In this document: positions 44,461 to 47,947 of the stretch, piece by piece | Numbering within the stretch: position 1 is the stretch's first letter | Layout: every line of letters begins with the position of its first letter | The notes under the pieces: model-generated | What the model saw: only the letters and a program-made list of their open reading frames with translations | What the model was told of the DNA's origin: nothing | The model's database searches: none | Assembly: GCF_014084125.1 (NCBI RefSeq) | Contig: NZ_CP048405.1 | Coordinates: 1,612,001 to 1,676,000 of the forward strand | Length of the DNA: 64,000 nucleotides | Direction: 5' to 3' | Source of the DNA: Streptacidiphilus sp. PB12-B1b | GTDB lineage: Bacteria; Actinomycetota; Actinomycetes; Streptomycetales; Streptomycetaceae | Translations under genes and position numbers: made by a program

Positions 44461-45036
44461 TCAGATGTGGACGCCGAAGTCCTGGGCGATGCCGACCAGT
44501 CCGGAGGCGTAGCCCTGGCCGATGGCGCGGAACTTCCACTCGGCGCCGTTGCGGTACAGCTCGCCGAAGACCATGGCGGTCTCGGTCGCGGCGTCCTCGC
44601 TCAGGTCGTAGCGGGCGATCTCGGCCCCGCCGTTCTGGTTGACCACCCGGATGAAGGCGTTGCGGACCTGGCCGAAGCTCTGGTTGCGGTTGTCGGCCTC
44701 GTAGACCGAGACCGGGAAGACCACCTTTTCGACCTCGGCCGGCAGCCCGGCGAGGTTCACCTTGATCTGCTCGTCGTCGCCGTCGCCCGCGCCGGTGAGG
44801 TTGTCGCCGGTGTGGACGACCGTCCCGTCCGGGGTGGAGGTGTTGTTGAAGAAGACGAAGTGCTTGTCGCTGAGGACCTTCCCGGTGGCGTCGAGCACGA
44901 TGGCGCACGCGTCCAGGTCGAAGTCCGCCCCGGTGGTGGTGCGGACGTCCCAGCCGAGGCCCACGGTGATGGCGCTCAGCCCCGGGGCCTCCTTGGTAAG
45001 AGAGACGTTTCCGCCCTTGGTAAGACTGACCGGCAT
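44461..45036 (-). CDS. terD: TerD family protein
   Basis: Protein of 191 aa, the size and sequence of TerD/TerE/CABP stress proteins. [73 protein letters not shown] and [19 protein letters not shown] are diagnostic; the GADFDLDA and GDGDDE acidic loops bind Ca2+. Cytosolic or membrane-peripheral. Strong Shine-Dalgarno sequence (GGGAGGGGA). Actinomycetes often carry several paralogues with roles in development and stress; the specific one cannot be told. Probably the first gene of an operon with NADAR. Confidence 0.96.
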
Positions 45037-45234
45037 GGCTGTCCCCTCCCTGCTCCGTTCCCGCTGTCGCGGGTAAGAACGCCGACGACACCCCCGCGGT
45101 TCCCCGCAGCCGGCCCCGCGCGCCGCTCGGACCGCACCGGGGGTGGCGGTGCGGGGGCTGCGGAATGCAGGCGGGGGAGGGGTTCGGCCGATGATGTGCG
45201 CGTCCGGGGGCTCTTTGGAACGGGGATTCCGAGG

Positions 45235-45240
45235 TAGCCT
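45235..45240 (+). promoter_or_regulatory. Leaderless -10 element of a leader peptide
   Basis: TAGCCT, 6 nt before ATG 45247. TCTTTG at 45212-45217 with a 17-nt spacer is a weak -35 candidate. Confidence 0.55.
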
Positions 45241-45246
45241 TGCGGT

Positions 45247-45321
45247 ATGCCAATGCTCGTAGCCCGTCTGTACGTGGACCTGCTCCGCGTTACGAGCATG
45301 TCCTGTCGCGCCAACGTCTGA
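45247..45321 (+). CDS. Putative actinobacterial leader peptide (24 aa)
   Basis: A 24-codon frame from ATG 45247 to TGA 45319-45321, beginning [15 protein letters not shown] and ending TSMSCRANV. The pattern (R-hydrophobic-VDL-RV-S-x-CR) matches the short leader peptides annotated before many sulfur, amino-acid and transporter genes in Streptomyces, which end near a Cys-Arg. Its codons contain a perfect 9-bp inverted repeat, ATGCTCGTA (45253-45261) / TACGAGCAT (45291-45299). It lies 46 nt upstream of an oxygenase gene on the same strand and seems to be leaderless. A cis-acting attenuator role is inferred. Confidence 0.72.
45253..45299 (+). promoter_or_regulatory. Inverted repeat inside the leader peptide
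   Basis: ATGCTCGTA / TACGAGCAT, 9-bp perfect arms 29 nt apart, enclosing the middle of the leader reading frame. A second small hairpin TCTGA-CTC-TCAGA overlaps the leader stop codon (45316-45328). Alternative folding set by ribosome position is plausible. Confidence 0.55.
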
Positions 45322-45367
45322 CTCTCAGAACGTTCCCCCACCGGCGTCACACCCTCCAGGACGTGTC

Positions 45368-46342
45368 ATGTCCCAGCATCAGCTCCCCCTGATCGACCTC
45401 TCCCGCATCGACCGCGAGGCCCTGCACCGGGCCGTCCGCGATGTCGGCTTCTTCCAGCTCACCGGCCACGGCGTGACCGCCGAGGAGAGCGAGGCCCTGC
45501 TCGGGGCCGCGCGGGCGTTCTTCGCCCTGCCCGAGGCCGAGCGGCTGGCGATCGACAACATCAACTCCCCGCACTTCCGCGGCTACACCCGCACGGGCAA
45601 CGAGCTGACCCGGGGCACCCGCGACTGGCGCGACCAGCTGGACATAGGCGCCGAGCTGCCCGCGCACGTGCCCGGTCCGGGCGAGCCGGACTACTGGTGG
45701 CTGCAGGGGCCGAATCAGTGGCCCGGTGCCCAGCCCGAGCTGCGGCGGATCACCCTGGACTGGATCGACCGGCTGAGCGCGGTCGCCCACCGGCTGCTGC
45801 ACGCGCTGCTGGACGCCATCGGCGCCCCCGAGGACTTCTACGACGACGCCTTCTCCGGCCATCCGCACACCAACCTCAAGCTGATCCGCTACCCCGGCCG
45901 GGCTCCGGAGGGCGACGACCAGGGCGTCGGCGTGCACAAGGACTACGGCTTCCTGACCCTGCTGCTGACCGACGGCGTCGGCGGGCTGCAGGTGGAGGGC
46001 CCGGACGGGGAGTTCCAGGACGTCCCGCACATCCCGGGGGCGTTCGTGGTCAATCTGGGGGAGCTGCTGGAGGTGGCCACCGACGGTTACCTCAGGGCCA
46101 CCAACCACCGGGTGGTCAGCCCGCCCGGGGCGCGCGAGCGCTTCTCCGCGCCGTTCTTCTACAACCCGCGCCTGGACGCCCGGATCGCGCCGCTGCCCTT
46201 CCCGCACGCGGTGCAGGCCACCGGGGTCACCCAGGACCCGGACAATCCGCTCTTCGCCGAGTACGGCCGCAACTCGCTCAAGGGCTGGCTGCGCGCCCAC
46301 CCGGAGGTCGCCCACAAGTACCACCCGGACCTGGTCGGCTGA
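45368..46342 (+). CDS. 2-oxoglutarate/Fe(II) oxygenase, isopenicillin N synthase family
   Basis: Protein of 324 aa. N-terminal DIOX_N domain (LPLIDLSRIDREALHRAVRDVGFFQLTGHGV) and the C-terminal double-stranded beta helix with the iron ligands in VHKDYG (HxD, about residue 192) and ATNHRVV (His, about 247), and the 2-oxoglutarate-binding ARERFS (Arg-x-Ser, about 256). Length is typical of the plant-like/IPNS family. Substrate unknown; bacterial homologues are poorly studied outside beta-lactam synthesis, and there is no beta-lactam cluster here. Probably controlled by the leader peptide upstream. AGGA lies 8 nt before ATG 45368. Confidence 0.93.
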   Translation: MSQHQLPLIDLSRIDREALHRAVRDVGFFQLTGHGVTAEESEALLGAARAFFALPEAERLAIDNINSPHFRGYTRTGNELTRGTRDWRDQLDIGAELPAHVPGPGEPDYWWLQGPNQWPGAQPELRRITLDWIDRLSAVAHRLLHALLDAIGAPEDFYDDAFSGHPHTNLKLIRYPGRAPEGDDQGVGVHKDYGFLTLLLTDGVGGLQVEGPDGEFQDVPHIPGAFVVNLGELLEVATDGYLRATNHRVVSPPGARERFSAPFFYNPRLDARIAPLPFPHAVQATGVTQDPDNPLFAEYGRNSLKGWLRAHPEVAHKYHPDLVG

Positions 46343-46409
46343 GGCCCGGCCGAGCCCGACCACAGGACCCCGGACCCGGCGCGAGCCCGCCCCGCCCCGG
46401 ACAAGCCGC

Positions 46410-46443
46410 GAGCCCCCCGCAGCCGATCGGCTGCGGGGGGCTC
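46410..46443. terminator. Bidirectional terminator
   Basis: Perfect 15-bp stem GAGCCCCCCGCAGCC (46410-46424) / its complement (46429-46443), loop GATC, between the oxygenase and MFS genes, which converge. Confidence 0.9.
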
Positions 46444-46477
46444 GTCGGTCGCACGCCGACCGGTGACCGCCCGGGGG

Positions 46478-47947
46478 CTACCCGACCCGGCTGGGCAGCC
46501 GGGTGGAGAGAGCGATCACGCCCAGCGTCAGCACCAGTTGCAGGGCCAGCACCAGCGCGAGCGCGTCGTGCATCCCGTGGCTGGAAGCGAGGGTGAGGAA
46601 CAGCGTGCCCAGCGTGGCCACGCCCAGGGCCAGGCTGGACTGCTGGGTGGTGGCGAAGATGCCGCCGCCGACCCCGGCCCGCTCGGCCGGGATCTCCGAG
46701 AGGATCAGCCGGATCATCGGGGGCATCACCAGGCCCTGCCCGGTGCCGGCGATGGCCATGCCGGGCAGCAGCACCAGCGGGCTCAGCCCGGACCAGTCGT
46801 CGAACACGGTGAGGGTGAGCACCAGCAGGCCCACGGCCTGGATCACCGCGCCGGTCCGGATCACCTTGCTGCCGTAGCGGTTCAGCAGCCGCGGCCCGGC
46901 CAGCGACGCGGCGAAGAAGCCCACCGCCATCGGCACCATGGCCAGGCCGGACGCGATCGGGCCCTCGTCCAGCCCCTGCTGCAGGGCCACGGCCATGACC
47001 AGCATGAACCCGCCGAAGCCGGCGAAGAAGGGGACGGACAGCGTCAGCCCGGTCCGCAGCCCGTGGATGCGCAGCAGCGAGAACGGGATCAGCGGGACCG
47101 CCCCGGACCGCTCCACCCGCCGCTCCACCGCGACGAACGCGGCGGCCAGGAAGGGGAAGGCGGCCAGCAGCGCCCAGGTCCACCAGGGCCAGCCCACCGC
47201 GCGGCCCTCCATCAGCGGGACCAGCAGCGCCAGCAGCGAGGCGGCCAGCAGCGCGGTGCCCGGCAGGTCCACCCGGGCCGGGTTGGCCGAGCGGGTCTCC
47301 GGCACGGAGCGCAGCGCCAGCAGCGCGGCGGCGGCCGCGACCGGCACGTTCACCAGGAAGATCAGCCGCCAGCCGGTGCCGAACAGGTTGGCCGAGAGCA
47401 GCACGCCGCCCAGCACCTGCCCGATGACGACGGAGATGCCGCCGACCGCGCCGTAGATGCCCATGGCCCGGGCCTTGCGCTCGCCCTGGGTCGCGGACTG
47501 GATGGTGGCCAGCGCCTGCGGCAGCATCAGCGCGGCCGACGCGCCCTGCGCGACCCGGGCCGCGACCAGGGCCAGCGCGGTCGGCGCCAGTCCGCAGGCC
47601 AGCGAGGTGAGGCCGAAGGCGATGGAGCCGACGATGAACAGCCGGCGGCGTCCGAAGAGGTCGCCGAGGCGTCCGCCGAGGACCAGCAGGACGGCGTAGG
47701 CCACGCCGTACCCGGCGACGAACAGCTCCAGCGTGGCCGGGCCGGCGGCGAGGTCGCGGTCGATGGTGGGCAGCGCGACATTGACGATGAAGAAGTCCAG
47801 CATCGGCAGGAACGCACCGAGCAGGACGGTGATCAGGCCCAGGGTGCTGAGCCGGGGTGGAGCGGGTGGTGTGTCCGAGGGGGCTTTCGTGCTGCCGATG
47901 CGGGTCACGCGCGGCAGGACGCTTGCTGCTGAGGACGGGCGAGTCAT
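46478..47947 (-). CDS. MFS drug transporter, DHA2 (14-helix) type
   Basis: Protein of 489 aa. About fourteen hydrophobic segments; LGAFLPMLDFFIVNVALPTIDRDL in helix 1 with the Asp typical of DHA2 pumps, then the A-motif LGGRLGDLFGRRRLFIVG, and the C-motif region GAVGGISVVIGQVLGGVLLS. Such pumps export drugs or antiseptics using the proton gradient. ATG 47947 (MTRPSSAAS) is chosen; frames further upstream would cross the intergenic palindrome. Divergent from an XRE/MmyB-type regulator 108 nt away, which is the likely regulator. Confidence 0.94.
   Translation of the reverse strand: MTRPSSAASVLPRVTRIGSTKAPSDTPPAPPRLSTLGLITVLLGAFLPMLDFFIVNVALPTIDRDLAAGPATLELFVAGYGVAYAVLLVLGGRLGDLFGRRRLFIVGSIAFGLTSLACGLAPTALALVAARVAQGASAALMLPQALATIQSATQGERKARAMGIYGAVGGISVVIGQVLGGVLLSANLFGTGWRLIFLVNVPVAAAAALLALRSVPETRSANPARVDLPGTALLAASLLALLVPLMEGRAVGWPWWTWALLAAFPFLAAAFVAVERRVERSGAVPLIPFSLLRIHGLRTGLTLSVPFFAGFGGFMLVMAVALQQGLDEGPIASGLAMVPMAVGFFAASLAGPRLLNRYGSKVIRTGAVIQAVGLLVLTLTVFDDWSGLSPLVLLPGMAIAGTGQGLVMPPMIRLILSEIPAERAGVGGGIFATTQQSSLALGVATLGTLFLTLASSHGMHDALALVLALQLVLTLGVIALSTRLPSRVG

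Follow-up and report, generated by a model that had tools for sequence, protein, structure and literature searches.

A conserved leaderless leader peptide with a fixed rare cysteine codon upstream of a 2OG-Fe(II) oxygenase in Streptomycetaceae: a possible cysteine-responsive attenuator

A short leader frame with its own -10 element lies directly upstream of a 2OG-Fe(II) oxygenase gene of Streptacidiphilus sp. PB12-B1b, and it accompanies this gene in most of the orthologous loci examined. We have very little doubt that it is a real, conserved leader of the translated type, belonging to a known class. The best explanation overall, which we hold to be reasonably probable, is that the element would act as a cysteine-responsive attenuator and bring the oxygenase into the cysteine/sulfur regulon. 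The window analysed here is a stretch of 64,000 nucleotides, and its features are on the plus strand except where indicated.

The leader is a frame of 24 codons (45247-45321) with its ATG at 45247 and a TGA ending at 45321, 46 nt before the oxygenase ATG (45368). A -10 promoter element, TAGCCT (45235-45240), stands 6 nt upstream of the leader ATG, exactly as the initial annotation had placed these features; no convincing -35 box was found at the window leader. The frame is probably translated, from a leaderless mRNA, and its peptide ends in VTSMSCR. The same annotation had proposed that a leaderless, Cys-containing leader of an actinobacterial class precedes the IPNS-type oxygenase, and comparison of the orthologous upstream regions supports it. 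Orthologues of the oxygenase were detected in 157 of 298 genomes of the family, and 111 Streptomycetaceae loci were taken for leader inspection. The same leader was found upstream, on the coding strand, in 103 of the 111. In all 103, TAnnnT precedes the start codon (59 ATG, 44 GTG) by 6 or 7 nt, for a background frequency of this motif of 0.00048 per position. Leaderless genes of S. lividans have the same geometry, with a -10 TAnnnT at a mean spacing of 6.3 nt (PMC8079986). Because the frame is conserved in orthologues together with the TAnnnT spacing, a chance origin is excluded. Of the two findings that the initial annotation would have taken as contrary, a lack of any conserved short frame upstream of the orthologues is contradicted by these counts, and a transcription start beyond 45321 is made less likely by the conserved -10 element. 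The 80 loci from named genomes (Streptomyces, Streptacidiphilus, Kitasatospora and related genera) give the same leader picture.

In the gene tree, the main clade (clade A) comprises 158 distinct oxygenase proteins, 153 of which have the leader. Promoter or leader remnants are retained in 4 of the 5 exceptions. The leader is thus ancestral in this clade and has been lost now and then. A decayed leader start is still seen upstream of the oxygenase in L079, the leader of L089 appears decayed too, and in L092 and L103 the promoter is kept but the frame is lost. These four natural losses can be used as comparisons of expression. Homologues of the oxygenase from other families, at about 55% identity or below, were devoid of the leader.

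Against NCBIfam NF042934, a family of "putative leader peptides", the window leader scores 26.1 bits (E=4.5e-6), just below the cut-off of 27, and 25.9 bits in the genome-wide search. The orthologous oxygenase leaders of genomes G023, G036 and G024 score 35.4, 35.4 and 32.9 bits, above this cut-off. The orthologous leaders thus fall inside NF042934 by score, and the window copy just outside. The latter has the R-x-[HY]-V-D-L-x-R-V core and the C-terminal Cys, upstream of a same-strand gene, and it matches weakly the Cys-rich family NF042936 (Ms4527A, E=0.0016). The NF042934 class was found in 79 of 118 class genomes (E 1e-4) and in none of 14 control genomes (E 0.001).

Leaders of this type had been said to precede sulfur or transport genes, and this is what the genome of the window contains: class copies lie upstream of a ThiS plus PALP enzyme pair (cysO-cysM-like), a rhodanese, a nitrite/sulfite reductase (NIR_SIR) and a sulfatase, and also of luciferase-like monooxygenases, an ABC permease, a solute-binding protein and a beta-carbonic anhydrase. 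Most of these targets are sulfur genes. Two class leaders of this genome stand out. One, in L042 (C1:3211198-3211251, minus strand, MTVLVRRRHVDFGRLSSAACRAHR), lies before a beta-carbonic anhydrase, with TAnnnT 7 nt before its ATG and a short spacer; as it closely resembles the oxygenase leader, the cysteine regulon may include this anhydrase too. The other, in L040 (C1:4389798-4389851, MERSTRLTNRGHIDLLRVASAACR), scores above the NF042934 cut-off, has no predicted same-strand gene within 1.5 kb downstream, and is possibly an orphan leader.

The putative sensing codon is Cys-20 (45304-45306). It is TGT in 103 oxygenase leaders out of 103, while TGT makes up 9% of the Cys codons in long genes of the same loci, and Cys is the sole leader position fixed as a rare codon. 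Among the other leaders read in the genome of the window, the last conserved Cys is always TGT, and earlier Cys codons are mostly TGC. A scripted count on 26 further leaders of the family gave 24 TGT, and in the two TGC cases the pattern had overrun to a later Cys. Class-wide, 43 of 51 leaders have TGT, compared to 60 of 426 in background genes, the exceptions being mostly poly-Cys tracts or false matches. Over L242-L329, the conserved Cys is TGT nearly without exception across many actinobacterial families, with earlier Cys mostly TGC.

Codon choice is constrained elsewhere in the leader, where the residues R, V and D (each 103/103) and H (102/103) are nearly invariant. The Val of the HVD motif is GTG in 102 leaders of 103, and the Thr is ACG in 89 of 97. 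Among the conserved columns of the oxygenases from these genomes, no Val column is more uniform than 82%, and all Thr columns favour ACC. Codon conservation at the leader Val and Thr is therefore greater than at any conserved Val or Thr of the enzyme, and relatedness alone does not explain the fixation of codons in the oxygenase leaders.

The fixed rare TGT, together with the position of the leader class on sulfur genes, makes cysteine the likely signal, and the leader quite probably responds to cysteine supply. Cysteine, arginine and translation status had all been put forward in the initial annotation. The first is favoured by the TGT codon and the sulfur targets, and translation status is left unsupported. 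Arginine was rejected, as the Arg codons interchange between CGC, CGT and CGA and sulfur genes are the usual company of the class. No mention of a fixed rare UGU at a conserved leader Cys was found in the open-licence papers searched. A wider proposal, which we put forward as speculative and rather doubtful, is that the whole class would sense cysteine by one fixed UGU, which would be decoded slowly, by wobble, in genomes where about 90% of the Cys codons are UGC; the nascent R-H-V-D would probably aid the sensing, and the oxygenase would be a new organosulfur-scavenging enzyme. The fixed UGU offers a simple and testable account of sensing through one Cys codon.

The gene behind the leader (45368-46342) is complete and encodes a 2OG-Fe(II) oxygenase of 324 aa, of the IPNS/EFE type. 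Both Pfam domains are above their cut-offs (DIOX_N, 2.4e-29, 102.8 bits; 2OG-FeII_Oxy, 1.4e-21, 77.2 bits), and PDB relatives are 9ovh (9e-57) and 6jyv (8.4e-51). All 185 aligned proteins keep the metal and 2OG residues H190, D192, H247, R258 and S260. For PA4191, which is possibly the relative from Pseudomonas with the structure 6jyv, no sulfur link was found in the papers searched. On the minus strand, divergent from the leader, 44461-45036 encodes a protein that looks TerD-like by eye; it has no NCBIfam match at E 1e-5, and in relatives it does not accompany the oxygenase.

It had been remarked that no other gene explains the role of the oxygenase. This is correct within the window, and for the leader-bearing oxygenases of clade A as a whole, which have no adjacent sulfur genes and stand alone among unrelated neighbours; it does not extend to the relatives, as the operons of the sister clade (clade B) carry transporter and sulfur genes. 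Clade B comprises ten distinct oxygenase proteins (support 0.997), without this leader, accompanied in their operons by amino-acid ABC transporters, a homocysteine S-methyltransferase or sulfonate transporters. In the seven clade B loci with flanks wide enough to be counted (L134, L136-L140 and L144), the operon consists of a family-3 binding protein (SBP3), a permease, an ATPase and a homocysteine S-methyltransferase, with the oxygenase last; the methyltransferase matches NF007020 with 351.7 bits, for a cut-off of 215. In L148 and L154 the oxygenase lies downstream of an aliphatic sulfonate transporter, with canonical leaders on both the transporter and the oxygenase (SsuA upstream in L148: 195.9 bits, cut-off 163.5). 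In L122 (G170:C1:465441-474226), the oxygenase is last in an amino-acid ABC transporter operon headed by MAGYLVSRRHIDLRRVTAMSCRPSC, a VTAMSCR leader. This is the second oxygenase copy of that genome; the first is L092, mentioned above for the loss of its leader.

On the strength of the operons that the sister clade shares with sulfur-related genes, we think on balance that the enzyme has a role in sulfur metabolism. Its leader, a kind of switch known from actinobacterial sulfur genes, likewise suggests that the enzyme would help the cell to obtain sulfur. A role in the scavenging of organosulfur compounds is what we infer from the repeated meeting of the oxygenase with this leader type and with sulfur functions. 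Farther away, at L236, a homologue from another family (49% identity) has a MetE-like protein, recognised by eye (MKLSSERILTTHTGSLPRP...), directly before it, at a distance of between 50 nt and about 1.2 kb, again a methionine link. The distant homologues L225-L241 have no consistent neighbourhood, and no paper linking the leader or the oxygenase to cysteine in Streptomyces was found among open-licence papers. An oxygenase present in about half of the sampled Streptomycetaceae genomes thus gains a regulatory and operon context, that of cysteine/sulfur supply, so that its substrate can be looked for among sulfur compounds.

We propose the following mechanism, all statements of which are read from sequence: unlike the leader, the promoter, the UGU codon and the sulfur company, the transcription start, the direction of the response, the output step and the substrate are inferred. 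From the position of the -10 element, RNA polymerase would start at the leader ATG, and on the resulting leaderless mRNA the leader would be translated at once. A shortage of charged tRNA-Cys would make the ribosome linger at codon 20, the rare UGU, a sensing step proposed by analogy with the mycobacterial cysteine attenuators, and this pause would increase oxygenase expression. When cysteine is plentiful, the ribosome would reach the stop codon and leave, and the mRNA would go back to a state that yields little oxygenase. This low state would probably be, in the present genome, a hairpin placing GUCCUG (45300-45305, over the Ser-Cys codons) on CAGGAC (45357-45362), the complementary Shine-Dalgarno region of the oxygenase. 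Rho-dependent termination at the C-rich, G-poor spacer would be the likelier output for most relatives. The oxygenase itself would probably oxidise an organosulfur compound, from which sulfur is released or recycled.

Folding predictions are the basis of the hairpin proposed for this genome. With the window RNA folded up to the ATG, the pairing of GUCCUG with CAGGAC is part of the minimum-free-energy structure. The Shine-Dalgarno is paired with the Cys region with a value of 0.96, and its predicted openness is 0.04 in the free RNA and 0.35 once a ribosome occupies the Cys codon, for a null mean of 0.49. Inclusion of 36 nt of coding sequence makes this pairing disappear. A similar or partial pairing is predicted in the Streptacidiphilus loci L004, L005, L006, L007 and L012, a weak or intermediate one in L010, and little or none in L008, L009 and L011; in 90 other orthologues the mean pairing is 0.07. 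Since a stalled ribosome brings no average rise in predicted openness across orthologues, sequestration of the Shine-Dalgarno as a conserved, general mechanism was rejected, and is kept as a prediction for this genome only, where we believe such an occlusion to be the output slightly less than we doubt it.

The spacer (45322-45367) is 46% C and 20% G. Over the 40 nt that follow the leader stop, C minus G is 0.35, compared to 0.014 +/- 0.139 in other 5′ regions (n=648). This composition, which is the evidence for Rho, is conserved in most relatives and would make Rho-dependent termination the likelier output there; as the output step, Rho is a possibility that we hold with distinct reserve. Spacers range from about 42 to 205 nt across orthologues, and those of Streptacidiphilus (42-50 nt) are short for a full rut site. 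An attenuator of the trp/ilv type, with an intrinsic terminator, was rejected, as the GC hairpin and U-tract that it needs ahead of the oxygenase are lacking: no terminator-like site was found in 45000-46500, and a stretch of 8 nt with 5 or more T occurs in only 23 of 102 spacers.

The inverted repeat within the leader bears on a different reading, in which the RNA would be the sensor. The initial annotation had pointed out a perfect 9-bp repeat, and its arms, ATGCTCGTA (45253-45261) and TACGAGCAT (45291-45299), do match exactly in the window. The full repeat is not conserved, and was rejected as the functional element: what the leaders commonly share is no more than a 5-bp core, CTCGT/ACGAG, intact in 75% of distinct leaders. 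With the hairpin ACGTG/CGCGT, present in 98% of them, and the constrained codon choice, this core could suggest that the leader hairpins and the spacer form a riboswitch or a protein-binding site, the coding capacity being fortuitous. An Rfam search gave no match and covariation gave no support to the leader hairpins, for which reasons a riboswitch was rejected; moreover, the frame, the start codon and the stop position are kept in the 103 orthologues despite the interchange of ATG and GTG. An RNA sensor is thus the reading to which we give the least credit.

A difficulty for the cysteine attenuator is that a single Cys codon makes a weak sensor next to poly-Cys leaders. The same fact, and the near-invariance of R-H-V-D in leaders of quite different genes, which exceeds what the counting of codons needs, would be accounted for by an arrest peptide: the nascent LVxRRHVDxxRV, by interacting with the exit tunnel, would set the pause together with cysteine or a sulfur metabolite, the Cys codon alone not being the sensor. 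Fixation at the codon level (TGT, GTG, ACG) suggests that decoding or the RNA matters, and not the peptide alone, and we consider an arrest peptide unlikely. Finally, the module might not be regulatory, leaderless translation of a conserved short frame merely supplying ribosomes to the oxygenase. The weak Shine-Dalgarno sequences of the Streptomyces orthologues would fit with this, as would the four orthologues that lost the leader frame and kept the promoter or leader remnants. It leaves unexplained the fixed Cys/TGT, the presence of the class on sulfur genes and the wide range of spacer lengths, and we hold it to be very improbable. A cysteine-responsive attenuator remains our preferred explanation.

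This kind of leader is already known and is partly annotated by NCBI; the oxygenase target and the sulfur link were not found in the open-licence papers searched. NF042934 of Actinomycetes has in common with the window leader its size, the R-x-VDLxR core, the C-terminal Cys, the leaderless start and a family-wide occurrence. The window copy differs from it by its score below the cut-off, its VTSMSCR ending and its oxygenase target. With the IPNS-like and EFE-like enzymes (9ovh, 6jyv), the oxygenase shares the fold family by sequence, with HxD...H and RxS, and it differs in that its sister clade is tied to sulfur genes. Leader attenuators of the tnaC type, or Rho-dependent, consist of a short leader frame followed by a C-rich, G-poor stretch. 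The window shares this arrangement, with the stretch directly behind the frame, but its spacer is just 46 nt long and the likeness is one of composition. The closest known systems for the sensing step are the leaderless polycysteine short ORFs of mycobacteria, which precede cysteine-metabolism genes and sense through ribosome pausing (Canestrari et al. 2020, doi 10.1111/mmi.14498, as cited in PMC13236596 and PMC9094748). They resemble our leader, which is probably leaderless, in being short frames with Cys codons, and in ribosome pausing as the proposed sensor. The window leader differs by having one Cys codon and no poly-Cys tract (orthologous oxygenase leaders have 0 to 1 further Cys), by an occlusion of the Shine-Dalgarno that is not conserved, and by its target, which here is an oxygenase.
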